Below the pieces are notes generated by a model, which searched no databases, was not told the origin of the DNA, and saw only the letters and a program-made list of their open reading frames with translations. Positions 14,581-63,363 of a stretch of DNA of 64,000 nt are shown one piece after another (the stretch's first letter is position 1; every line of letters begins with the position of its first letter). The stretch is from Musa acuminata AAA Group (Eukaryota > Streptophyta > Magnoliopsida > Zingiberales > Musaceae): the NCBI RefSeq assembly GCF_036884655.1, contig NC_088345.1:20393501-20457500 (forward strand), read 5' to 3'. A program made the position numbers and the translations under genes.

Positions 14581-14915
14581 TGCAGTTTGCGTCTAAGCGT
14601 AGTTTTGCGTCTGAGCGCAGTTTGCGTCTAAACACAGTTTGCGTCTAAGCACAGTTTGCGTCTAAGCGCAGTTTGCGTCTAAACTCAGTTTTACGTCCAA
14701 ACGCAGTTTTACGTCTAAATGCAGTTTTACGTCTAAACGTAGTTTTGCGTCTAAACGCAGTTTTACGTCTAAACGCAGTTTTACGTCTAAACGCAGTTTT
14801 ACGTCTAAAAGCAGTTTTACGTCTAAACGCAGTTTTGCGTCTAAACGCAGTTTTACGTCTAAACGTAATTTTACGTCTAAATGTAGTTTTGCGTCTAAAA
14901 GCAGTTTTGAACCTT
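14581..14915. repeat. 18-bp minisatellite in C's left LTR
   Basis: Tandem units of the type TTTTACGTCTAAACGCAG, with some 17-bp variants (TTTGCGTCTAAGCGCAG) at the left end. As the unit is six codons, it opens a long frame reading LRLNAV repeatedly; this is a by-product, not a gene. Confidence 0.92.
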
Positions 14916-15509
14916 GAAAAGCGTTTTACGTAGAAAGCAATTTGCAGTTATAAATGGAATCCGAATGTAAGCGTAAACTGCAGTGTGAAGATCGTACGAA
15001 AACACGATTTACGTTTGAATGCAGATTCTGAAAGATCAGAGCTTAGAAACTCGTTCGTAAAGGCGCAGAGGGCAGTAGCAATGTAGGAGGTTTGCAGTAA
15101 TGATAAAGTGCTCAAGGTAAAAGCAAACCAGAGATTTAGAGTGGTTCGGTCAGTCTTGACCTACTCCACTTTTGGCTTCCTCCTCCGACGAGGTCACCGA
15201 CGTCAACTAGCTGCCTTCCTTCAATGGGCGAAGGCTAACTGCCCTTTTACAGTTTCTCTCCTTTTGACAGGCTCAGGAGACAACCTTTACAGATCCTTTC
15301 TCTCCTCTCTTTACAACTCAAGACTTGAAGAACAGAAGGAGGAGAACTTTAGGACTTTACACAAATTTGAGCTCTTAGAATCACTGAAAAGATCAAGAAT
15401 TCGGTGTGAATCTGTTGTCAATTCAGTGTTGAATGGGTGGGGTATTTATAGGCCCCAACCCAATTCAAATTTGGAGCTCAAAACGATCACATCCCGGAAT
15501 TCCGGGATC

Positions 15510-20643: not shown

Positions 20644-23116
20644 TGTTAGGATCGAGAGCACTAAGAGGGGGGGGGTGAATTAGTGCAGCGGAAATCTTAT
20701 AGTAATTTAAAAACGAAAGCTGCGTTCGTCCGATAAAAAACGATTTCGATATAAAAGCAGAATCACAGTGCAGTTTGCGTCTAAGCGTAGTTTTGCGTCT
20801 GAGCGCAGTTTGCGTCTAAACACAGTTTGCGTCTAAGCACAGTTTGCGTCTAAGCGCAGTTTGCGTCTAAACTCAGTTTTACGTCCAAACGCAGTTTTAC
20901 GTCTAAACGCAGTTTTACGTCTAAACGCAGTTTTACGTCTAAACGCAGTTTTGCGTCTAAACGCAGTTTTACGTCTAAACGCAGTTTTACGTCTAAACGT
21001 AGTTTTACGTCTAAACGCAGTTTTGCGTCTAAACGCAGTTTTACGTCTAAACGTAATTTTACGTCTAAATGTAGTTTTGCGTCTAAAAGCAGTTTTGAAC
21101 CTTGAAAAGCGTTTTACGTAGAAAGCAATTTGCAGTTATAAATGGAATCCGAATGTAAGCGTAAACTGCAGTGTGAAGATCGTACGAAAACACGATTTAC
21201 GTTTGAATGCAGATTCTGAATGATCAGAGCTTAGAAACTCGTTCGTAAAGGCGCAGAGGGCAGTAGCAATATAGGAGGTTTGCAGTAATGATAAAGTGCT
21301 CAAGGTAAAAGCAAACCAGAGATTTAGAGTGGTTCGGTCAGTCTTGACCTACTCCACTTTTGGCTTCCTCCTCCGACGAGGTCACCGATGTCAACTAGCT
21401 GCCTTCCTTCAATGGGCGAAGGCTAACTGCCCTTTTACAGTTTCTCTCCTTTTGACAGGCTCAGGAGACAACCTTTACAGATCCTTTCTCTCCTCTCTTT
21501 ACAACTCAAGACTTGAAGAACAGAAGGAGGAGAACTTTAGGACTTTACACAAATTTGAGCTCTTAGAATCACTGAAAAGATCAAGAATTCGGTGTGAATC
21601 TGTTGTCAATTCAGTGTTGAATGGGTGGGGTATTTATAGGCTCCAACCCAATTCAAATTTGGAGCTCAAAACGATCACATCCCGGAATTCCGGGATCAGG
21701 CGGTTGCACCTCTTGACTGGAGAGGTGGCACCGCCTGGCAGAGCTCGAAGACTGAGCTCAGGCGAGTGCACCTCTCTGCCAGAGCTCGAAGACTGAGCTC
21801 GGTGGTTGCATCGCCTGGCAGAGCTCGAAGTCTGAGCTTGGTGGTTGCATCACCTGGCAGAGCTCGAAACTGAGCTCAGGCTGATGCACCTCTCTGCCAG
21901 AGGTGGTTGCACCTCTCTGCCAGAGCTCGAAGACCGAGCTCAGGCGATGCATCTCCTGTCCAAAGAGGTTGCACCTCTTTGCCAGAGCTCGAAGACCGAG
22001 CTCGGTGGTTGCACCTCTTGGCAGAGCTCGAAACTTGAGCTCTGGCGGTGCTACCTCTTGATAGAGGAGGTTGCACCGCCCAGTCTCGCTTGGAGACTGA
22101 GCCCTGGGCGGTTGCACCTCTTGGTTGGGGCGGTTGCACCGCCCAGTCCCGCTGGAAGACATGGCCTGGGCGGTTGCACCGCCTGGCTGGGGCAGTTGCA
22201 CCGCCCAGTCCCGCAGCCCAGGCGGTTGCACCTCCTGGCCTAGGCGGTTGCACCGCCTGGTGCAATCAGGGTCCGAATGGTTCGCTCCATTCGGCCCAAT
22301 TTGAATCTTTTCAGGGGCCCAATTGCCCCAAGATTAAGCTAATGGGATCACCTCCCATTTTCAAGCTTAATCATCATGCTAACTACGATTAACTCTAAGA
22401 CAACTTCTGCAGCTATGCTCCGATGCGTCAATCGCTTCTTCCGGCGAGTTTCCAGCGAACTTCCGTCGATCATCCGATAAACCCTCGGTGATCCTTCTGC
22501 GGACATCCGGCATACTCCTGGACTTTGCGACGATCCACTTGGCGAGTTCCGACGAGCTTCGCTAGGCAAGCTTCTGGACTTCTCGGATCTGTTCTCGCTG
22601 AACCTCCGACGACCGTCCGAACTTCCGTCGAACTCTCGAACTCCCAACGTGATCATGATCTTGACTCCGGCGCAACACCTGCTGCTTGTCTTACTCTTAT
22701 CGTAGTTAATCCTACACAACAAATCAAAACTTCGATCGAGACAATTAATCCTAAGCAATTAACCAAGTTGTCCGACATGTCATTGGTCTCTCGACGCTTC
22801 GTCCGATTCTTCGGCGCATCGTCCTCTCCTGCAGCCTATTGCCCAATCGGCCAGTTGACTCCGCAACTCCGATATCCTTGGCACAATACCCGCTCTTCTT
22901 GGCCGAATGCCCGAGTTCACGGCCCGAAGCCTTCTGTCGATACGTCGACCGATCCACCGGCCCGACGTCCAATCTTCTGACATGTTCCTTCGGCACAACA
23001 TGATTTTCCTGCTTTAATTGTCTCATCCTGATCGAAGCATCCTGCGTCACTCAAAACGCAGATTAAATCATAAACATATATCAAGTAGTTTCATCATCAA
23101 AATACGAGATTCAACA
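20644..23116 (-). repeat. Element C 5' LTR (right copy)
   Basis: Same length and order of parts as the left copy: poly-G tract (20668-20676), 18-bp minisatellite (about 20768-21103), minus-strand TATA box (21631-21638), repeat-box array (about 21700-22265), end GAGATTCAACA. The minisatellite has not changed length between the two LTRs, though single units differ by substitutions. Confidence 0.93.
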
Positions 23117-49486: not shown

Positions 49487-50643
49487 TCAATTGCTGCGTG
49501 AAGAATGATCCAACTGAAAAATACACTGAAAAGCCATCATTGTATTATATTGACGACTAAACATCATATTAAGTCTCTCTCTCAAAATAATTAAAAATAT
49601 AAATTTTCTATTTAAAAATATAAGATTATCGTAACATTGTTTTAATCAATATTTGAAAATATTTTATCTCGACTAATAACATGATTTAGCATTACAACTA
49701 AGGAATAAAAAATTAAAGTACAATACAAATTGACTAATCATTTTTTGGAGTTTCAAATAGGTATCTTTATTATTTCTAAACAATAACATATAAACAACTT
49801 GACTTATATGTCAATTATTAGCTACAATATTTTAAAATAATGTTACAATATTTTTTATGTATAAAAAAACACACTAATTAATTAAGAATGACTCAAAATC
49901 TTTTACAAACTAACTTATTTAGATTATATTCTTATTTTTTTATGAATAAGAACATGTAAAAAATACTTCAATCCTATATTAATTGTAATATTACGAATAG
50001 TATTACAAGTTTTTGGTACCACCATGAAAAAATGATAGCCCTATACAAAATATTGATAGCCTATACAATAATATTATAACCAAGACTCAAAACTCAACAC
50101 AAATTAACTTATCAATATTATAACCAAGACGCATCTCAATACCCTCAACGAGCAGACCAAAGTCGTCTGTGATGATGATGGTGTCTTTGTCCCTACATCA
50201 AACCCATCACCTTAATGGTCATGCAGCACAGCAACGCCATCGTCAAGATCTTCATTCGACGGGACGTAGTTGGGGTCCTGCACCCACTACTTCTCATGTT
50301 GGAACTTGTGTTAGATCATCATAGCAGTATATTGCACTCATCTCCATCTCCGTCGAGTTACCGTCGCCATCCTCAGTGCCGACGATGACTGAGGAGGAGG
50401 ACAACAACAAATCGATGCTCGGGTTCAGGTCAAGGTGGCTCAGCTGATGTATGATCTCAAATTGTGGGGCAGTCCCGACATGCACAAAATAAGATACAAG
50501 AAGTTGTCCCTGATCAAGTAGAAGGACAGGACTCGAAGTCCTCCGCCTCAACGTTCGGAGTACGACCACCAAGGGTGAGGTTGAGGCAGAGGTCACTTGA
50601 GTAGTAGGAGGAGGATTTTGAGAAGGAGATGCTGCATCGGGGC
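49487..50643. other. Unassigned region with a GC-rich gene-like island
   Basis: The part 49487-50095 is AT-rich without features. From about 50100 to 50640 the composition changes to GC-rich, codon-like sequence. The longest frame is 50596-50294 on the minus strand (100 aa, Ser/Leu-rich, not recognised). Neighbouring minus frames give fragments such as WVQDPNYVPSNEDLDDGVAV (about 50270-50210). It may be a decayed host gene fragment; no family is assigned. Confidence 0.4.
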
Positions 50644-50895
50644 TGTTGGCTCTTATGAGAATTGAAAGAGAAGAGGAATAAAATATGAAAATAATTAGGA
50701 GTAGTTGTAATATGTAGTATTTTGGATTGATCTAAGATATTTATTTATATTAGCTAAAAGATAAAGTATATATTTTAAATAATAAAAAAATCTATCATAT
50801 CCTAATAAATCTTTTTACTTTCATCTATTTATTTTAATTTTAATTTTTATCTTTTCTTTTATCTATTCTTAACTATTTTAATTAATCTTATCACA
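50644..50895 (-). repeat. Element K 3' LTR (left copy)
   Basis: Plus-strand start TGTTGGCTCTTATG, end TTATCACA; AT-rich. Next to it CCCTCTTAATTC is the complement of a polypurine tract. Confidence 0.7.
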
Positions 50896-50959
50896 CCCTC
50901 TTAATTCAAAATAGTTATAATATGAAATTGTCTTCAAAAATATAAAAAAAAATTAACAA

Positions 50960-51410
50960 AACTTTTATAAAGATGTCAACAAGCTAATCTTCGATGTTGT
51001 AATAGTTCATTTAATTTTTTTTTATCAATTAGTTTATGAATAAAATGATATCAAACTTTAATGTGTTTGATGTACCAATGAAAGATAAGTTGTTACAACA
51101 TATTTTAATTAGTTCATCTTATTTTTCTTAGAGGTCTGCTAGAATTCTTTGAAGTCAAATTATTTGACATATTATATTTATGGCCACAATATACTCTACT
51201 TTTGAGAAGGCAATACATTCTTATTTTTTCATTATCCATAAAATCACACTTAAGCTAAGGTTGAGCACAAATCTTTAGTGTTTTTTCTATCAGCTGCATT
51301 AACAGCCCAATCACTATCAGTATAATATTATAACTTAAAATCTTTTATTTGCTACCATAATTGAGTGTTCTCTTGATATATCTAAAAAATATTTTAGTTG
51401 ACTTTAGGAA
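50960..51410 (-). pseudogene. pol: RNase H and Pol C-terminus remnant of element K
   Basis: Minus-strand translation with stops and shifts shows FFRYIKRTLNYGSK (about 51400-51360), DSDWAVNAADRKNT (about 51315), VILWIMKK then ECIAFSKVEYIVA, LQRILADL, then KHIKV and YHFIHK, and LVDIFIK at about 50985. These match the copia RNase H series of DSDWAG, SWSSKKQ, ALSTAEAEY and KHIDIRYHFI, and the end LADIFTK. It is heavily decayed. Confidence 0.85.
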
Positions 51411-51935
51411 CTCATTGATGCTCAATGATTTTTTGCGATCAGTATTTTCCTTTTTTTTTTTAATCCTTAACTGAACTTAAAAAAGATAGGGTCATTTTAT
51501 TTTTTAGCTGTATCATAGACGGTAACTCCTTGTCAATTTTGACCTTTCTCTCCTCGAGCTTACGTTGCAAGTAAAGTCTTTCTTTTTTATTTCTTAATTT
51601 TTTATATTCTTCTAGAGTCATCTCCTTAGCCTCTTCTTTTTCTTCTTAGTCATTAGTTGCGCATTCCTATGTAATCTTTAGTCTCTTCGAATAATGTTGA
51701 CTTTTTCTATTTTTGCAACTTCCTAGTTACAAGCTTATTTTCATTGGAGTTTAAGGCCTCATCCTTTTCTTATCTATCCATCTCATTAGTTACAGTTTTC
51801 TAATTATCATGACATGTGTCATGTCATTTCATCTCATAGCCACTATATGAGATAGTTTGCATAAACCCACAAAAATCCAAATGATCATAGCATTTATGTC
51901 ATAATATCAATTTGTCAATAATAGTAGCAATAAAT
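51402..51935 (-). pseudogene. Captured fragment of an RGG/HABP4-SERBP1-type mRNA-binding protein gene
   Basis: Not retroelement sequence. Read on the minus strand it gives SGYEMK (about 51865), TVTNEMD (about 51790), an acidic/lysine-rich stretch, then EAKEMTLEEYKKLRNKKERL, LEERKVKIDKELPSM and finally DRKKSLSINEFLK (51440-51402). This order matches the C-terminal half of plant RGG-repeat nuclear RNA-binding proteins (hyaluronan/mRNA-binding family): GxEMKR, NWGTVTDE, KEMTLEEYE, ERKVDxDKE, SMQ, and K(S/A)xSINEFLKP. Stops at several places (for example where Trp is expected before TVTNE, TAG) and a frame change after SSVKD show decay. No intron interrupts about 150 codons, so it looks like a captured spliced transcript. 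Its last codon runs in frame into K's RNase H (INEFLKSTKIFFRYIKRTL). Confidence 0.85.
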
Positions 51936-52079
51936 GCAGGAGAAATCTAAAAATAATAAGAGAAACACTTTATTTTTTATCATCCTTACAATTACTATCA
52001 ATTTATCATTTTTTATCATAAATTAAATATTTTTCATCATAAAAAATAACATAATATCATTTTCTCATCAATTGTCTAT

Positions 52080-53177
52080 ACTAATAAGATTTTGTTTTAA
52101 ATTAGGAATAAACATCACTATTGTCATTTTTCATATGTATTGTAGATTTGATTGAATTATCAAATCTTTGAAATAAACTTTTGTCTCCTATCATATAATT
52201 ATCGTATCCACTATTCAAAAACCAAATAATATTCTTCATTAGATGCTATAAAAAAATTATTTTTTTATTCTTTTTTCATAATTATTTTTCTCATGATAAT
52301 TTCTTGATTTTTGGTCTAACAATTTTGTTTAAGATGGCCATCTTTTTTATAATAAAAATAGAGAGGAATATTTAAATTTTTAGTTTTGTACCAATAATCT
52401 TTTTTAATATGTCTACTTTTTTATAACAAAATCATTAGTGGATTTCTTTGACTTTTACTAGAGTTCTCTAACTCTCATTTGATCTCTCTTTTAAGATTTG
52501 ATTTCTAAATTTTTCTTTTGGTTTTTTCTTTTGATATTTCTTTGTTTGAAGAGCTTGTTCTAAAGTTTTATTTGAAGCTCTATTCACTTTTTATTTATAA
52601 ACTAAAAGCGATATCATTAATTTATTAATAAATAATATACTTGTATCTTTAGCTTTTCTTATAGCAGTAGAAATCATATTAAATTTTGGAGATAAATTTC
52701 ATAATTTTTTTTCTATTATAGTTTGATCTTTTAGGTTTGCACTATAAGATCTCACTTAGTTTACAATAGAAGAGTTTTTTAACAAAAAATCAACGATAGA
52801 TTCAGAATCTTTCATCATAAGAGTTTTGAATTTATTTCAAAAAATTTGAAACTTTAAAACTTTTATATTGTTTGTGCCTCCAAATATATATTTTTGTATT
52901 TTTTAGGCTTCGATTGATGTTGATGCCATCATGATTGCTTGCAATAGCATGTAGATGGCTCTTGTATCTTTTTTGTATATTTTCATTCATCTGATCTTTT
53001 TTATATTTAGTAATATTAGGATCCTGTAGATTATACTCAACAAAATCCTTCTTTACTAAATTCCACAATTCTTGTGAAATAAATAAAAAAATTTATTTTA
53101 ATGATATAAAATTGATAATTTTCACCTTTGAAGATAGGAAGAAGTTGATTAGGAATATTTACTCAAATGCTTGTCAT
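52080..53177 (-). pseudogene. gag-pro: Gag and protease remnant of element K
   Basis: From ATG 53177, with frame breaks: IPNQLLPIFKGENYQFY (capsid N-terminus), LWNLVKKDFVEYN (frame 53068-52832), degenerate knuckle FYYKKDGHLKQNC (about 52360-52310), and protease WFLNSGYDNYMIGDKSLF (52224 downward). There the active-site D of WxLDSG is N and the following C is Y. These are typical copia landmarks, all decayed. Confidence 0.82.
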
Positions 53178-53275
53178 CTCTTTTATTTTTATTTTCTAGA
53201 TCTAGTAATCTTTTCTTCTTTTTTAATTTATATACTCTTGTTGATCTAATTCAAATTAGGCTATGATACTTTACT

Positions 53276-53549
53276 TGTTGGTTTTTCAACAAACTTCAAA
53301 GAAAAAAGAAAAAAGAATAGTAGAAGAAACTAGAAGTACCTTCAATTTGTAATGTCTTGGATTGATCCAAAAATACTTAATTATATTAGTCAAAAGAAAA
53401 AGTATAATTTTTTTTAGATAATAAAAAAATTATCATACCTCAATAAATTTTTTTACCATTATTTATTTATTTATTTTTACCATTAACATTATCATATCTC
53501 AATAAATTATTGTATCCTATTATAGTATTTTTTTAATTAAATTACTATA
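53276..53549 (-). repeat. Element K 5' LTR (right copy)
   Basis: Starts TGTTGGTTTTTCAAC next to the degraded primer site. The right end is placed near TTACTATA by alignment with the left copy and is uncertain. Confidence 0.6.
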
Positions 53550-53894
53550 TTTTTATTAATACAAGAAAAATATTTTAACTCAATTGGAAAACACCAACTA
53601 GTTTATTTTGTGTTAATCTTGAACACTTCTTCAACAACAAATCAAAGATAATGCTAATGAACCTAACATAAGCGTCAATAAATTATATCCTTAAAAATAA
53701 TTATGGGTAGAGATTTCAATTGAAAAATAAATATGCTATTTTGTACTGAGTTACAATGTTCATTACTATCACAAAAACACAATAACGCAACGAAGAATCC
53801 TATAATGGGTTAATGTTAAAAGTAAAGTGGTTTAATCGATTCATAGGAAAAGATAAAATTTATTGTACTTGTCACGTTAAGAGGTATATGGGGA
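53550..53894. other. AT-rich spacer
   Basis: Between K and D. I see no gene, repeat or regulatory structure in it. Confidence 0.5.
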
Positions 53895-53899
53895 TTAAT

Positions 53900-56151
53900 T
53901 GTTAGGATCGAGAGCACTAAGAGGGGGGGGGTGAATTAGTGCAGCGGAAATCTTACAATAATTTAAAAACCAAAAGCTGCGTTCGTTCAAAAACTATTAT
54001 GATGCAAAAGCAAATTCTCAGTTTGTATCTGAGTGCAGTTTGCGTCTAAGCGCAGATTGCGTTTAAGCGCAGTTTTGCGTCTAAGCGCAGTTTTGCGTCT
54101 AAACTCAGATTTACGTCTAAACGCAGATTTACGTCTAAACGCAGTTTTACGTTTAAACGCAGATTTACGTCTAAACGCAGTTTTACGTCTAAACGCAGAT
54201 TTACGTCTAAACGCAGTTTTACGTCTAGACGTAGATTTACGTCTAAACTTTGAAATTCGTTTGTATACTCGCAGAAGGCAGTATGCAGTTGAAATCAAGA
54301 CGTAAACGTGAACTGAAATCTGATGATTGAGCGAGGAAAGCCGATTTACGTCTGAATGCAGTTTTACGTCTAAATGTTGAAACTCGTTCGTAAAATCGTA
54401 GAGGACAGATTGCAGTTATTAATAGGATTAAAATGTAAGCATAAACTGCAAAGAAGCTCGTTCGTAAAAGCACGGAAAACAGTTCTGCAGAATCAAACGT
54501 AAACGTAAACTGTAATGTATGAAAATACGAATTTACGTCTGAATGCAGATTTGGAAGAACAGCACTTAGAACTTGTTCGTGAAAGCGCAGAGAGCAGTAG
54601 TGATGAGGGAGGTTTGCAGTAATGATAAAGTGCTCGAAAATAAACGCAAACCAGAGATTTAGAGTGGTTCGGTCAGCCTTGACCTACTCCACTTTTGGCT
54701 TCCTCCACCGATGAGGTTGCCGACGTCAACTAGGTGCCTTCCTTCAATGGGCGAAGGCCAAACTGCCCTTTTACAATTTCTCTCCTTTTGACAGGCTTAG
54801 GAGACAACCTTTACAGACCTTTCTCTCCTCACTTTACAATTGAAAACTTGAAGAACAGAAGGAGGAGACTTAAAGGCTTTACAACACTTTTGAGCTCTTA
54901 GAATCACAGAAAAGATCAAGATTTCGGTGTAGGTCTCTATCTTTTCAGTGCTGAATGGGTGGGGTATTTATAGGCCCCAACCCAATTCAAAATTCGAGCT
55001 CAAAACGATCAAATCGATCAAATCCCAGAATTCTGGGATCAAGCGGTTGCACCTCTTGACTGGAGAGGTGGCACCGCCTGGCAGAGCTCGAAGACTGAGC
55101 TCAGGCGATTGCTTCTCTCTGCTAGAGCTCGAAGACTGAGCTCGATGGTTGCATCACCTGGCAGAGCTCGAAGACTGAGCTTGGTGGTTGCATCACCTGG
55201 CAGAGCTCGAAACTGAGCTTGGTGGTTGCATCACCTGGCAGAGCTCGAAACTGAGCTCAGGCTGATGCACCTCTCTACCAGAGCTCGAAGACTGAGCTCG
55301 GTGATTGCATCACCTGGCAGAGCTCGACACTGAGCTCAGGCTGATGCACCTCTCTGCCAGAGCTCGAAGACTGAGCTCGGTGGTTGCATCGCCTGGCAGA
55401 GCTCGAAACTTGAGCTCTGGCGGTGCTACCTCTTGGCAGAGGAGGTTGCACCGCCCAGTCTAGCTCGAAGACTGAGCTCTGGGCGGTAGCACCTCTTGGC
55501 TGGGGCGGTTGCACCTCCCAGCCTCGCAGCCCTGGCGGTTGCACCTCCTGGCTGGGGCGGTTGCACCTCCCAACCTCACAGCCCAGGCGGTTGCACCTCC
55601 TGGCTGGGGCGGTTGCACCTCCTGGTGCAATCTGGGTCCGAATGGTTCACTCCATTCGGCCCAATTTGAATCTTTTCAGGGGCCCAATTGCCCCAAGATT
55701 AAGCTAATGGGATCACCTCCCATTTTCATGCTTAATCATCATGCTAACTACGATTAACTCTAAGACAACTTCTGCAGCTTTGCTCCGATGCGTCAATCGC
55801 TTCTTCCGGCGAGTTTCCGGCCAACTTCCGTCGATCATCCGATAAACCCTCGGTGATCCTTCTGCGGACATCCGGCATACTCCTGGACTTTGCGACGATC
55901 CACTTGGCGAGTTCCGACGAGCTTCGTTTGGCAAGCTTCTGGACTTCTCGGATCTGTTCTCGCTGAACCTCCGACGACCGTCCGAACTTCCGTCGAACTC
56001 TCGAACTCCCAACGTGATCATGATCTTGACTCCGGCGCAACACCTGCTGCTTGTCTTACTCTCATCGTAGTTAATCCTGCACACTTATCTCAACACATAG
56101 ATTAGATAACAAATGACAATTGACTTCATCATCAAAATCCGAGATTCAACA
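53900..56151 (-). repeat. Element D 3' LTR (left copy)
   Basis: Plus start TGTTAGGATCGAGAG, end GAGATTCAACA. G tract 53924-53932, 18-bp minisatellite (about 54017-54250), minus-strand TATA box 54965-54972, box array about 55040-55635 (TGCA core). Confidence 0.95.
54017..54250. repeat. 18-bp minisatellite in D's left LTR
   Basis: Units TTTACGTCTAAACGCAGA/T. Three units fewer than the right LTR. Opens frames reading LRLNAD/LRLNAV on one strand and RRKTAF/RRKSAF on the other; these are not genes. Confidence 0.93.
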
Positions 56152-56943
56152 ATCTCCCCCTTTTTGATGATGACAATCAATTGATAAAGGAGTTGTCCTT
56201 AACTCCCCCTATCTATATGCCATAGTTGAGATAAGTCAACCTTGAATTCAAGACCTAAGAATTCAAGTGACGTATTGATAAATTAGATCAGTTAAACTTA
56301 TCAATGCTCCCATCATGATGCCCATCATGATGTATCTCTTCAAGAATGATGTCAAGGCATGACATACATCATTAAGTTTGTATGATAGTGTTTGTAACCA
56401 TTCATCATGTAATCATATAAAGCTACGAAGGACTTTTTACATGATGCTCACATTTGAGATTTTCTAGTAAGTTTGCATTTTCTTCACAATATCAAATCAA
56501 GATATGATGCAAACTATAGTACATGTTCACATATCTCTTGGTGATGCAAGGATGGCATAACATTGTTTATAGCATCACTCAAGTATTTGCAACTATGACG
56601 TAGATATGATTATGGCAGTTCAGCTATGACATAGTGTTTATCAATTCATATGTTTCTCCCCCTTTGTCATCAACAAAAAGCATGATAGCATTATCAAGCA
56701 TATAAAGGAAGTCATGACACATATATCTCTTTATTGTTTTTGCTTGACAGAGGAAAGTCATTTTCCAAAGAGTTTTCATAAGAGTGTACGGGAACATTCC
56801 ATTTTTAGCATACAAACCGAAAAATGAACTTTTTACATGCATTTGGTTAAAAATATTTGTCACATAATTTGCAACATGTTATTTGATCAAGCGTTGTCAA
56901 GGCATGTAATAGTAATAACATCCGAAAGATAATTTTAACTAGT
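56152..56943 (-). other. 3' noncoding region of element D
   Basis: Homologous to A 7361-8113. Polypurine tracts (as pyrimidines) at 56152-56165 (terminal), about 56203 and 56655-56664. No envelope-like ORF between RNase H and LTR. Confidence 0.85.
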
Positions 56944-59415
56944 TTAAGTATTCGGACACATCAACATTCCTAATTCTCTTCTTATGTAATCAAATTGTTC
57001 TTCACATAGGGGTTTTGTGAAGATATCAGCTAGTTGATATTTGGTATCAATAAACTCTATGGTTACATCATGATTAGTGACATGATCTCGTATAAAGTGA
57101 TGTCTAATATCAATGTGTTTTGTTCTTGAGTGTTGTATAGGATTTTTAGTTAAGCATATTGCACTCGTGTTATCACATTTAATGGGAATATCTTTAAGAT
57201 TCACTTTGTAATCTTTTAAAGTGTTTTTCATCCATACAACTTGTGCACAGCATGCACTTGCTGTAATGTATTCAGCTTCGGTTGTTGATAGGGCAACCGA
57301 GTTTTGTTTCTTAGATGACCAGGATACAAGGGCATGTCCTAAAAATTGACATGATCCTGATGTGCTTTTTCTGTCTAGTTTACAGCCAGCGAAGTCCGCA
57401 TCAGCATAGGCTGTTAATTCAAAATTTTCTGATTTTGGGTACCATAATCCTAGATTGGTAGTTCCATTAAGATATCTGAGTATTCTTTTGACTGCTTTGA
57501 GATGAGATATCTTAGGGTCTGATTGAAATCTAGCACAAAGTCCTACACTGAACATGATGTCTGGTCTGGTGGCAGTGAGGTAAAGTAAACTTCCTATCAT
57601 ACCCCTATAGGTTTTTTGATCGAAGCTTTCTCCATTCTCATCAATTTCTAACTTAGTGGAGGTGCTCATAGGAGTGTCAATGGCTTTTGAATTATTCATT
57701 TTGAACTTCTTTAGCAAACTCACAGCATATTTGGTTTGACTAATAAAGATGCCATTGCTTAGTTGTTTGATTTGTAGGCCTAAGAAGAATGTTAACTCTC
57801 CCATTAGACTCATTTCGAATTCATGACTCATAGTTTTCGCAAAGGATTCACAAAGAGATTCATTTGTAGAACCAAAGATAATATCATCAACATAAATCTG
57901 AACAATGAGAAAATCATTTTCAAAATTCTTGATAAACAATTTAGTATCAACCTTGCCTTTTATGAAATTATTTTCAATGAGAAAAGAGCTAAGTCTCTCA
58001 TACCAAGCCCTTGGGGCTTGTTTTAAACCATAGAGAGCTTTAGTTAATCTAAACACATGATTAGGGTAGCCATTATTTTCAAATCCAGGAGGTTGTTCAA
58101 CATAAACTTCTTCGGAAATGAAACCATTTAGAAAAGCGCTTTTAACATCCATTTGAAATAACTTAAAATTATTGCAACTAGCGTAGGCAAGGAGCATCCT
58201 TATGGCTTCCAATCGAGCCACAGGTGCGAAGGTTTCTTCGTAATCGATACCTTCTTCTTGGTTGAAACCTTTGGCCACTAATCTAGCCTTGTTTCTAACC
58301 ACGATACCATTTTCATCTTGCTTGTTTCTAAAGACCCATTTAGTACCAATTACTAAATAGTCATTTGGCCTAGGAACAAGCGTCCACACCTCATTTCTCT
58401 CAAATTGATTTAATTCATCTTGCATTGCGATAATCCATGAATCATCTTTCATGGCTTCATCAACACATTTAGGTTCAATTTGGGAGAGAAAAGCGGCGTT
58501 GGCACAAAAGTTTTTAAAAGAAGATCGTGTTTGAACCCCCTTTGATGTGTCTCCTAGGATTAGCTCCTTAGGATGAGCATCTATATACTTCCAATCCTTG
58601 GGTAAGGATGTTTTGGAAGTGGATGCAACCAAGTTGCTAGTTGGAGACGGGGTTTCGTTTAAATTCAAGGAATCAAAATTAACATCATCATCAAGATCAT
58701 TTTTCTTAATTTCTGAAATCTCATTGAAAACAACATGGATGGATTCTTCAATAATTAAGGTTCTTTTATTGAAGATGCGAAAAGCTTTAGAAACCGAAGA
58801 ATAACCAAGAAAGATTCCTTCATCAGATTTAGCATCGAATTTTCCTAAGTTATCCTTTTCATTCAAGATAAAACACTTACACCCAAAGACTTTAAAATAT
58901 GAGACATTGGGTTTTTTGTTATTCCATAACTCATAAGGAGTTTTGGTGAGTAAGGGTCTTACTAGGACTCTATTTAAAATATAGCATGCAGTGTTTACAG
59001 CTTCGGCCCAAAAATATTTGGGTAGGCTATGTTCATTCAACATGGTTCTTGCCATTTCTTGTAAATTTCGATTTTTTCTTTCTACTACCCCATTTTGTTG
59101 AGGATTTCTTGGAGTAGAGAAGTTATGGTTGTATCCGTTGAGTTCACAGAATTCTTGGAAGTCATGGTTTTGAAATTCTCCACCGTGATCACTTCTAATT
59201 GACGAAATCATAGATTCCTTCTCATTTTGAACAAGTTTACAAAACTTGGTAAAATGTCTAAAGCATTCATTTTTTTGTTTTAAGAAGTAGGTCCATGTAT
59301 ATCTGCTGTAGTCATCAATAATGACAAAGGCGTATTTGCTACCTCCTAGACTCGATGTAGAGATTGGTCCGAACAAGTCCATATGGATCAATTGTAAGGG
59401 CCTAGAGGTGCTTAT
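56944..59415 (-). pseudogene. pol: Integrase-RT-RNase H of element D (open from 59415)
   Basis: One open frame after the stop at 59416-59418, without its own ATG at the border (the frame reads [17 protein letters not shown]). The integrase core has D in HMDLFGP, D in IRSDHGGEF and E in [10 protein letters not shown], followed by [72 protein letters not shown], catalytic YVDDIIFG. RNase [51 protein letters not shown], ending MLMCPNT. All catalytic motifs look intact, but the stop and upstream shifts uncouple it from Gag. These are the enzymes the gag-only elements lack. Confidence 0.93.
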
Positions 59416-59476
59416 TTAATTCTTAGCTTTGAAGCTACCCCTAATTTGCTTACCTAATTGGCAAGCATCACATACA

Positions 59477-60240
59477 TTATCTTTGATGAACTTGATATGA
59501 GGAATTCCTCTTTACAAGTTCTCTAGATGATACTTGATTGATTAGTTTCATGCTAGCATGACCTAATCTTCTATGCCATAGCCAAGCATCCTCATTCATA
59601 ACGGCAAAGCACATTTCATCACATAAGTCATTGATGTCAATAGTGTATACGTTGTTTTGTTTTAATGCAATCATAGATATATTTTTGTGTGGTTTTTCAA
59701 TGATGCAGGCATTAGATTCAAATCTTATAATATATCCTTTATCACATAATTGACTAATGCTCAAGAGGTTATGTTTTAAACCATCAACTAGTAAAACATC
59801 TTCAATAGAGAGGTTGGATTTGTTACCTATGGTTCCTTTGCCAATGATTTTACCCTTGTTGTTGTCTCCGAAGGTGACATATCCTTCGTCTATGCTAGAG
59901 AGCTTAGAGAATTGAGATGGATCTCCGGTCATATGCCTTGAGCATCCACTATCAAGGTACCATTTCTTGCTCCTAGCTTGCGATTGTTTAGTTTTCTCCT
60001 CTTCGATGGCCATAAAGGCGTAATGAGCAACTTGCTCGGTGTTGGACTCCTCTTCCTCAGATGCGCTCGAATCATCCCATGTTGCTTGGAGCGCCTTCTT
60101 CTTTGTTGTTCTTTTCTTGACTTGGGGACAATCACTCTTGTAGTGTCCCGGCTTTTTACATTCGTAGCAGATTACTTGGTCCTTCTTGGGTTCAAGTTTA
60201 TTTTTCACATCGTTTTTAAACTTATTTCTTTTGAAGAATT
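59477..60240 (-). pseudogene. gag-pol: Zinc knuckle, protease and pre-integrase part of element D
   Basis: The frame entered after the 10-bp duplication carries CYECKKPGHYKSDC, an acidic linker (DDSSASEEEESNTEQ), then directly the aspartic protease with WYLDSGCSRHMTGD and the pre-integrase zinc region (LWHRRLGHASMKLINQ). It terminates falsely after a one-base loss near 59505-59512. In the alternate frame the expected CDACQLGKQIRG follows, up to TAA 59416-59418. Unlike A, there is no coiled coil and second knuckle between the first knuckle and the protease region. Confidence 0.9.
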
Positions 60241-60260
60241 TCTTAAACTTTCTTAAACTT
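60241..60260. repeat. 10-bp tandem duplication breaking D's gag-pol frame
   Basis: TCTTAAACTT occurs twice in direct succession. The corresponding place in A has one copy-length, giving a continuous frame. Polymerase slippage or reverse-transcription error is likely. Confidence 0.95.
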
Positions 60261-61007
60261 TCTTGTCAAAAGTGCCAAGTCATCGTCACAATCCTCATCA
60301 CTTGAGTTTTCTCTCAAGTGGCATTCAGAAGTTTTAAGTGCCATATCCTTCCTGTTCTTTGGAAGGATGTCTTCTTGCTCTTCATGAGCTTTGCAGGTCA
60401 TTTCGTAGGTCATTAATGACCCGATTAGTTCTTCAAGAGGGAAATTTCGCAGATCTTTTGCCTCTTGAATAGCAGTGACTTTAGGATCCCAACTTTTAGG
60501 AAGGGATCTTAGTATCTTATTAACAAGCTCAAAATCCGAAAAGCTCTTTCCGAGTCCTTTTAGACCGTTGACGACATCCGTGAAACGGGTAAACATGTCG
60601 CCAATGGTTTCACTCGGTTTCATTCGGAAAAGTTCAAAAGAATGCAGCAACAGATTGATTTTTGACTCTTTCACTCTACTTGTGCCCTCGTGGGTCACTT
60701 CAAGTGTGTGCCAAATATCAAAGGCAGTTTCGCAAGTTGAAACACGATTAAACTCGTTTTTATCAAGTGCGCAAAATAAGGCATTCATAGCCTTTGCATT
60801 AAGAGCGAAAGCCTTCTTTTCCAACTCATTCCAATCGATCATTGGAAGAGAAGACTTTGAAAAACCGTTTTCAACAAGGTTCCACAGTTCAAAATCCATA
60901 GAAATCAGAAAGATCCTCATTCGGGTCTTCCAGTAAGTGTAGTCCGTTCCACTGAACATGGGTGGACGTGTAATCGAATGCCCCTCTTGGTTTCCGGCGT
61001 ATGCCAT
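60243..61007 (-). pseudogene. gag: Gag of element D, frameshifted at its end
   Basis: ATG 61007 (MAYAGNQEGHS) and 254 open codons: RPPMFSGTDYTYWK, ALFCALDKNEFNRVST, KPSETIGDMFTRFTDVVNGL, LPKNRKDMALKT, then the acidic region SSDEDCDDDLALLTRKFKKV and a stop. The stop is caused by an exact 10-bp tandem duplication (60241-60250 = 60251-60260). Otherwise the frame would continue into the knuckle and protease. The capsid is nearly identical to that of A and clearly related to the Gags of B, C, E and F. Confidence 0.93.
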
Positions 61008-61043
61008 CTCTCTTGGGTTTTAATCCTTTAGAGAGTTAACCTT

Positions 61044-61055
61044 GCTCTGATACCA
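61044..61055 (-). other. Primer-binding site of element D
   Basis: GCTCTGATACCA, reverse complement of TGGTATCAGAGC, two bases from the right LTR. Confidence 0.95.
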
Positions 61056-61057
61056 AT

Positions 61058-63363
61058 TGTTAGGATCGAGAGCACTAAGAGGGGCGGGGTGAATTAGTGC
61101 AGCGGAAATCTTACAATAATTTAAAAACCAAAAGCTGCGTTCGTTCAAAAACTATTACGATGCAAAAGCAAATTCTCAGTTTGTATCTGAGTGCAGTTTG
61201 CGTCTAAGCGCAGATTGCGTTTAAGCGCAGTTTTGCGTCTAAGCGCAGTTTTGCGTCTAAACTCAGATTTACGTCTAAACGCAGATTTACGTCTAAACGC
61301 AGATTTACGTCTAAACGCAGATTTACGTCTAAACGCAGTTTTACGTCTAAACGCAGATTTACGTCTAAACGCAGTTTTACGTCTAAACGCAGTTTTACGT
61401 CTAAACGCAGATTTACGTCTAAACGCAGTTTTACGTCTAGATGCAGATTTACGTCTAAACTTTGAAATTCGTTTGTATACTCGCAGAAGGCAGTATGCAG
61501 TTGAAATCAAGACGTAAACGTGAACTGAAATCTGATGATTGAGCGAGGAAAGCCGATTTACGTCTGAATGCAGTTTTACGTCTAAATGTTGAAACTCGTT
61601 CGTAAAATCGTAGAGGACAGATTGCAGTTATTAATAGGATTAAAATGTAAGCGTAAACTGCAAAGAAGCTCGTTCGTAAAAGCACGGAAAACAGTTCTGC
61701 AGAATCAAACGTAAACGTAAACTGTAATGTATGAAAATACGAATTTATGTCTGAATGCAGATTTGGAAGAACAGCACTTAGAACTTGTTCGTGAAAGCGC
61801 AGAGAGCAGTAGTGATGAGGGAGGTTTGCAGTAATGATAAAGTGCTCGAAAATAAACGCAAACCAGAGATTTAGAGTGGTTCGGTCAGCCTTGACCTACT
61901 CTACTTTTGGCTTCCTCCACCGATGAGGTTGCCGACGTCAACTAGGTGCCTTCCTTCAATGGGCGAAGGCCAAACTGCCCTTTTACAATTTCTCTCCTTT
62001 TGACAGGCTTAGGAGACAACCTTTACAGACCTTTCTCTCCTCACTTTACAATTGAAAACTTGAAGAACAGAAGGAGGAGACTTAAAGGCTTTACAACACT
62101 TTTGAGCTCTTAGAATCACAGAAAAGATCAAGATTTCGGTGTAGGTCTCTATCTTTTCAGTGCTGAATAGGTGGGGTATTTATAGGCCCCAACCCAATTC
62201 AAAATTCGAGCTCAAAACGATCAAATCGATCAAATCCCAGAATTCTGGGATCAGGCGGTTGCACCTCTTGACTGGAGAGGTGGCACCGCCTGGCAGAGCT
62301 CGAAGACTGAGCTCAGGCGATTGCTTCTCTCTGCCAGAGCTCGAAGACTGAGCTCGATGGTTGCATCACCTGGCAGAGCTCGAAGACTGAGCTTGGTGGT
62401 TGCATCACCTGGCAGAGCTCGAAACTGAGCTCGGTGGTTGCATCACCTGGCAGAGCTCGAAACTGAGCTCAGGCTGATGCACCTCTCTGCCAGAGCTCGA
62501 AGACTGAGCTCGGTGATTGCATCACCTGGCAGAGCTCGACACTGAGCTCAGGCTGATGCACCTCTCTGCCAGAGCTCGAAGACTGAGCTCGGTGGTTGCA
62601 TCGCCTGGCAGAGCTCGAAACTTGAGCTCTGGCGGTGCTACCTCTTGGCAGAGGAGGTTGCACCGCCCAGTCTAGCTCGAAGACTGAGCTCTGGGCGGTA
62701 GCACCTCTTGGCTGGGGCGGTTGCACCTCCCAGCCTCGCAGCCCTGGCGGTTGCACCTCTTGGCTGGGGCGGTTGCACCTCCCAACCTCACAGCCCAGGC
62801 GGTTGCACCTCCTGGCTGGGGCGGTTGCACCTCCTGGTGCAATCTGGGTCCGAATGGTTCACTCCATTCGGCCCAATTTGAATCTTTTCAGGGGCCCAAT
62901 TGCCCCAAGATTAAGCTAATGGGATCACCTCCCATTTTCATGCTTAATCATCATGCTAACTACGATTAACTCTAAGACAACTTCTGCAGCTTTGCTCCGA
63001 TGCGTCAATCGCTTCTTCCGGCGAGTTTCCGGCCAACTTCCGTCGATCATCCGATAAACCCTCGGTGATCCTTCTGCGGACATCCGGCATACTCCTGGAC
63101 TTTGCGACGATCCACTTGGCGAGTTCCGACGAGCTTCGTTTGGCAAGCTTCTGGACTTCTCGGATCTGTTCTCGCTGAACCTCCGACGACCGTCCGAACT
63201 TCCGTCGAACTCTCGAACTCCCAACGTGATCATGATCTTGACTCCGGCGCAACACCTGCTGCTTGTCTTACTCTCATCGTAGTTAATCCTGCACACTTAT
63301 CTCAACACATAGATTAGATAACAAATGACAATTGACTTCATCATCAAAATCCGATATTCAACA
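61058..63363 (-). repeat. Element D 5' LTR (right copy)
   Basis: Same parts as the left LTR: G tract (interrupted by C, 61080-61088), minisatellite about 61192-61460 with three more units, minus-strand TATA box 62177-62184, box array about 62250-62850, end GATATTCAACA. Confidence 0.95.
61192..61460. repeat. 18-bp minisatellite in D's right LTR
   Basis: Tandem TTTACGTCTAAACGCAG(A/T) units. It is 54 bases longer than its partner in the left LTR, the whole LTR length difference. Confidence 0.93.

Follow-up and report, generated by a model that had tools for sequence, protein, structure and literature searches.

What we regard as an old and dead copia-type LTR retrotransposon, a defective derivative here called K, carries between its relics of gag/protease and RNase H a stretch that is, judged by similarity, a decayed copy of part of a Musaceae RGGA-type (HABP4/SERBP1-like) coding sequence (CDS). 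This piece was likely captured by template switching during the reverse transcription of K, in place of integrase and reverse transcriptase (RT). K lies in a window of 64,000 nucleotides, the whole stretch of DNA analysed. The features of K and of a neighbouring copia element are as follows:

53276..53524, minus strand: 5′ LTR relic of K (BLAST and alignment; ends set by eye, start approximate)
53259..53268, minus strand: possible primer-binding-site relic (TATCATAGCC), just inside the 5′ LTR
52471..53092, minus strand: gag relic with stops and frameshifts (alignment to the gag of the neighbouring copia)
52071..52245, minus strand: protease-region relic (sub-threshold Pol_BBD match and alignment to the neighbouring copia)
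51842..51946, minus strand: probable copia pre-integrase relic with the motif HKCYDHLDF (by position and motif)
51402..51841, minus strand: captured RGGA-type (HABP4/SERBP1-like) coding piece, GYEMK to SINEFLK, decayed, with no inserts at inferred intron sites
50979..51401, minus strand: RNase H relic, collinear with the RNase H of the neighbouring copia
50896..50907, minus strand: polypurine-tract-like GAATTAAGAGGG, directly before the 3′ LTR (by reading)
50644..50895, minus strand: 3′ LTR relic of K (BLAST and alignment; ends set by eye)
61019-60246, 60265-59480 and 59415-56947, minus strand: open reading frames of the neighbouring copia

Identity and extent of the captured piece

A frameshift-aware alignment to a profile of five Musaceae proteins gave 205.9 bits over 51841-51402, with 97 of 146 residues identical and six frameshifts, whereas shuffled controls reached at most 16.7 bits (8 shuffles). 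With a profile of 117 RGG proteins, mostly dicot by name, and frameshifts again allowed, the score was 86.8 bits over 51666-51402 (12 shuffles, ≤19.4 bits). The plant RGG proteins had been gathered with a bait sequence; 117 of the 120 fetched served as tblastn queries and matched the locus (best E = 3.3e-14), the best 40 rows showing 45-61% identity at 51666-51496 or slightly beyond. Alignment, tblastn and protein search thus all agreed with the HABP4/RGG family signature that had been proposed in a preliminary description of this DNA. That description had also named three peptides on the minus strand in a given order, and all of them were present there, in two frames and not one: KEMTLEEY and LEERKVKIDKELPSM share a frame (51645-51463), and RKKSLSINEFLKSTKIFFRYIKRTL is in another (51476-51348).

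The contrary reading, that ordinary copia pol or chance lysine-rich peptides were mistaken for an RGG protein, has a negligible probability. An AT-rich region favours K/E-rich translations, but the reading is ruled out by the distance between the alignment score and its shuffled controls and by the Musaceae relatives ranking first.

Other searches gave less. On a 61-residue piece alone, Pfam PF04774 was sub-threshold (E = 0.0034, 18.6 bits, cut-off 21.8) and the match took in just the final 31 model positions, being partial because the model ends at LEERKV. The same piece as the sole scored query matched no protein at E ≤ 0.01 among 37 candidates. One PDB search returned a single weak SERBP1 match (E = 0.58), and a second returned three unrelated chains (E 0.19-0.7). 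No match to 50600-53600 was found in a plasmid collection, and no relative was found in viral contigs scanned with P0044.

The aligned span comprised 155 profile positions (174-328 of 383) and did not include Stm1_N, which in P0122 occupies residues 1-72; the locus therefore holds a piece and not a whole gene. What was captured is the HABP4 domain except for its initial residues, together with the tail as far as SINEFLK. Compared with the Musa and Ensete RGGA proteins P0121-P0125, the piece follows their consensus from GYEMK to SINEFLK at the identity given above, but it is without Stm1_N, both RGG regions and the C-terminus, and it has stops, frameshifts and short deletions. Because the host reading holds stops and needs frameshifts, the piece is a pseudogene and not an open frame. 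Of the limits first proposed (51402..51935), the 3′ end agreed with ours, whereas the 5′ end was approximately 94 bases too far: RGG similarity starts at 51841, and 51842-51935 showed none.

Parent clade

When the host reading was searched against protein databases, 25 proteins were matched at E ≤ 10 among 735 candidates. The best five of the 25 were all from Musa or Ensete (E 5.9e-30 to 3.2e-28), and the sixth was from Zingiber (E 5.4e-22). On this ranking, the window itself very likely belongs to a Musaceae genome. All 25 carry the HABP4 domain, and PF04774 and PF09598 were the only Pfam domains listed for them. In a tree of 13 rows (four of the 16 chosen homologues, P0126, P0128, P0129 and P0130, were omitted; cutting pattern unmatched), the captured piece joined P0121, P0122 and P0123 (two Musa, one Ensete) with a support of 97 of 100, as a row with a long branch and unusual composition. 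A second Musaceae type (P0124 and P0125) was separate from it. Pairwise identities to the five Musaceae proteins fell in a narrow range (86-89 of 138). A Musa paralogue used alone as a profile (P0131) gave 113.6 bits, a value that as a one-sequence profile score is incompletely comparable with the others. As far as sequence comparison reaches, the parent gene clade is shown to be that of Musaceae.

Structure and age of element K

The LTR relics were paired by BLAST (53276-53541 with 50644-50909, 70%) and by an alignment of 53268-53523 with 50644-50897, which had 71.8% identity over 241 ungapped columns and 28 gap columns. They differ by 42 transitions and 26 transversions (K2P 0.366). At literature substitution rates of approximately 0.5 to 1.3 × 10^-8 per site per year, the LTR divergence would very roughly give K an age of 14 to 37 million years. 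No target-site duplication was recognisable at the LTR ends, where one of the five outside bases agreed, a comparison of little weight at approximately 28% LTR divergence. TATCATAGCC may resemble an initiator-Met primer-binding site. Directly outside the 3′ LTR there is a GC-richer, gene-like block (50100-50640), and for the minus-strand open reading frame 50297-50731 near this LTR Pfam gave nothing convincing (lowest E = 0.16).

The neighbouring copia (53897-62712) adjoins the 5′ LTR of K closely and is better preserved; its LTR-like repeats were approximately 95.8% identical over 1658 alignment columns, an alignment cut by the query end. Tandem repeats of 18 bases (TTTACGTCTAAACGCAG type, in the register of the first place) were observed at 54033-54302, and open frames coded by similar repeats at 61191-61514, 14649-14930 and 20837-21118.

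The coding relics of K were aligned to those of this neighbour. For gag, 52836-52594 scored 98 (0 of 500 shuffles as good) and 53092-52835 scored 43 (3 of 500), and a zinc-knuckle-like stretch at 52420-52319 was weak (28 of 500). In the protease region, the two pieces 52245-52105 and 52130-52071 were equalled by 1 of 500 shuffles each, and Pfam Pol_BBD matched below its cut-off of 27 (22.9 bits, E = 1.1e-4). The RNase H pieces were 51401-51348 (21 of 500 shuffles as good), 51342-51253 (0 of 500) and 51220-51118 (3 of 500); a further candidate, 50998-50918, failed (262 of 500). The gag, protease and RNase H relics are in the same order as in the neighbouring copia. Together with the LTRs they bear out the decayed copia-type element of the preliminary description, with the class resting on comparison with the neighbouring copia.

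The region 51842-51946 is probably the copia pre-integrase region, by position and motif: HKCYDHLDF stands 58-59 codons past LKQNLISI, the spacing that in the neighbouring copia separates WHRRLGH from the preceding LKHNLLSI. Alignment of 51946-51842 to that element gave no support (463 of 500 shuffles scored equally well), and Pfam showed no match there and no convincing domain in the RNase H pieces.

Neither an integrase nor an RT domain was found in K. Between the equivalent join points of the neighbouring copia (59525-57492, approximately 2.0 kb) lie integrase and RT; in K, 440 host-derived bases stand where this approximately 2 kb is expected. The host piece thus occupies the place first claimed for it, between the gag/protease and RNase H relics and inside the LTR relics. 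The maize element Bs1 reportedly also lacks RT.

Intron evidence

Intron sites were inferred from anomalies in seven homologue protein annotations and not from Musa gene models. Large anomalies within the captured span were present in 5 of 117 aligned proteins (P0027, P0049, P0028, P0035 and P0090), and the monocot anomalies were taken from the 12 of 25 database matches that were printed. In P0027, an insert of 26 residues between KAKK and AVSINEFLK begins with V and ends with Q, as expected of a translated GT...CAG. P0049 lacks precisely the residues directly preceding EMTLEEY, and P0028, P0035 and P0090 have inserts inside the captured span. P0142 (Aegilops) has a long insert after TDE and another V...Q insert between EDK and EMTLEEY. 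In P0141 (Ensete), homology begins at EMTLEEY, and VCFFFF stands between KL and GSDKD. The sites inferred were thus near TDE| (P0049, P0035 and P0142), EDK|EMTLEEY (P0142, P0049 and P0141), KL|GSDKD (P0141 and P0090) and KAKK|AVSINEFLK (P0027).

The RGG entries P0142, P0141, P0027, P0049, P0028, P0035 and P0090 variously show what look like retained introns, the skipping of an exon, a stretch present twice or alternative splice acceptors. There are signs that the anomalies in these seven entries are annotation errors, usable as intron markers.

The captured copy is uninterrupted at all three or four inferred sites, and its source was therefore probably a spliced mRNA; the donor, on evidence from these sites that is indirect yet consistent, was probably a spliced RGGA mRNA. 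The copy does have short deletions, two of which, of three and of four codons, fall in the interval from KL|GSDKD to KK|SLSINEFLK. The original statement that the piece has no intron thus holds for the sites inferred from homologues.

The same sites bear on a duplication at the DNA level, in which a genomic piece of the RGGA gene was copied into K. Genomic pieces can be copied by DNA transposons and by repair, but the uninterrupted reading across the three or four inferred sites speaks against this origin, and we consider it scarcely credible.

Junctions and mechanism of capture

Both joins are internal to K: gag/protease relics precede the host piece and RNase H relics follow it, all of them in minus sense, with the sequence directly at the 5′ join assigned by position and motif. 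The host piece is in sense orientation relative to K. The 5′ join lies inside one open frame (51898-51827). At the 3′ join, RNase H codons follow directly after SINEFLK, and the open frame 51476-51348 spans the join, as the preliminary description had it in stating that the host reading runs in frame into RNase H. It is possible that a short stretch at the 3′ join was common to both parents because the join codons are compatible with either.

A LINE-type retroposition would have left a processed pseudogene of RGGA nested in the dead K. The lack of inserts at the inferred intron sites is as such an origin would have it, but the piece ends inside the CDS and RNase H codons come next; the C-terminal RGG part, a 3′ UTR and poly(A) are all lacking, and approximately 2 kb of pol is absent at the same place. 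We consider this origin very improbable. Template switching is favoured over it because of the sense orientation, the ends within the CDS and the absence of poly(A), and two switches during minus-strand synthesis fit because there is also no 3′ UTR and the loss of integrase/RT coincides with the piece.

The capture by template switching that we hold likely would have proceeded as follows. K RNA would have been reverse-transcribed, probably inside a virus-like particle into which a spliced RGGA mRNA had also been packaged. The growing minus strand would have jumped from K RNA to the host mRNA close to where RNase H begins, been extended over approximately 440 bases of this sense mRNA (GYEMK to SINEFLK) and jumped back to K RNA close to where integrase begins, so that the host CDS would have replaced integrase/RT (approximately 2 kb). 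The resulting Gag-protease-(host)-RNase H element would have been non-autonomous, would have relied for its integration on proteins provided in trans, and would have decayed later. We infer the packaging, the two template switches, their occurrence as a single event and the integration in trans.

A different order of events would have K integrate with a normal pol and a later double-strand break be repaired with RGGA cDNA as filler, with the loss of integrase/RT; this would concern one chromosomal copy only. Ends within the CDS and a large deletion at the point of insertion fit such a repair equally well. It requires, however, that cDNA made from a cellular mRNA was freely available, and the sense orientation would be a coincidence (chance 1/2); we consider it unlikely. 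One copy of K was seen, and within the 64-kb window BLAST (E ≤ 1e-8) found no second copy of its interior. The agreement of frame at the joins (chance 1/9) is predicted by neither template switching nor repair and would be a coincidence under both.

Because the frame continues across both joins, the data are compatible with a further proposal, that the K family spread with a fused Gag-protease-HABP4-RNase H protein, the HABP4 part, which binds ribosomes and RNA, being useful to the element by gathering RNA into particles or favouring translation. We regard this proposal as quite doubtful. No fused host-element protein was present among the 25 matches to the host reading, in a search in which the query kept element codons on both sides and length limits applied.

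Comparison with known captures

No literature report of the capture of an RGGA/HABP4 gene by an LTR element was found among the matches listed. Capture of host genes by plant LTR elements is a known process, of which K is a well-supported further case. Switching between LTR-element RNA and mRNA is a published model (PMC5408686), abnormal template switching and Bs1 are described in a review (PMC13317346), and most plant retrogenes, according to PMC4838847, have LTR elements on their flanks. Sister copies with the same junctions, if they exist, would place the capture before the move of the element.

As Bs1 is presented in PMC13317346, it resembles K in being an LTR element with coding sequence from cellular genes in its interior. 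Bs1 is a maize element with three donor genes, whereas K has one RGGA/HABP4-type piece, very likely belongs to Musaceae and is badly decayed. LTR-captured genes have been counted in rice (672) and sorghum (1,343), and these captures (PMC3726574) are like K in that host gene sequence lies between LTRs; the words 'hyaluronan' and 'RGG' are absent from the main text of that paper. K is probably too decayed for such a screen of full-length elements, and captures may be under-counted if screens for intact elements skip decayed ones. The method of PMC3726574 counts any gene within a full-length LTR element, whereas for K the junctions and a likely mRNA origin are read. In K, the donor clade, the likely splice status and both borders are legible in one element, and the donor would be the mRNA of an RNA-binding protein.
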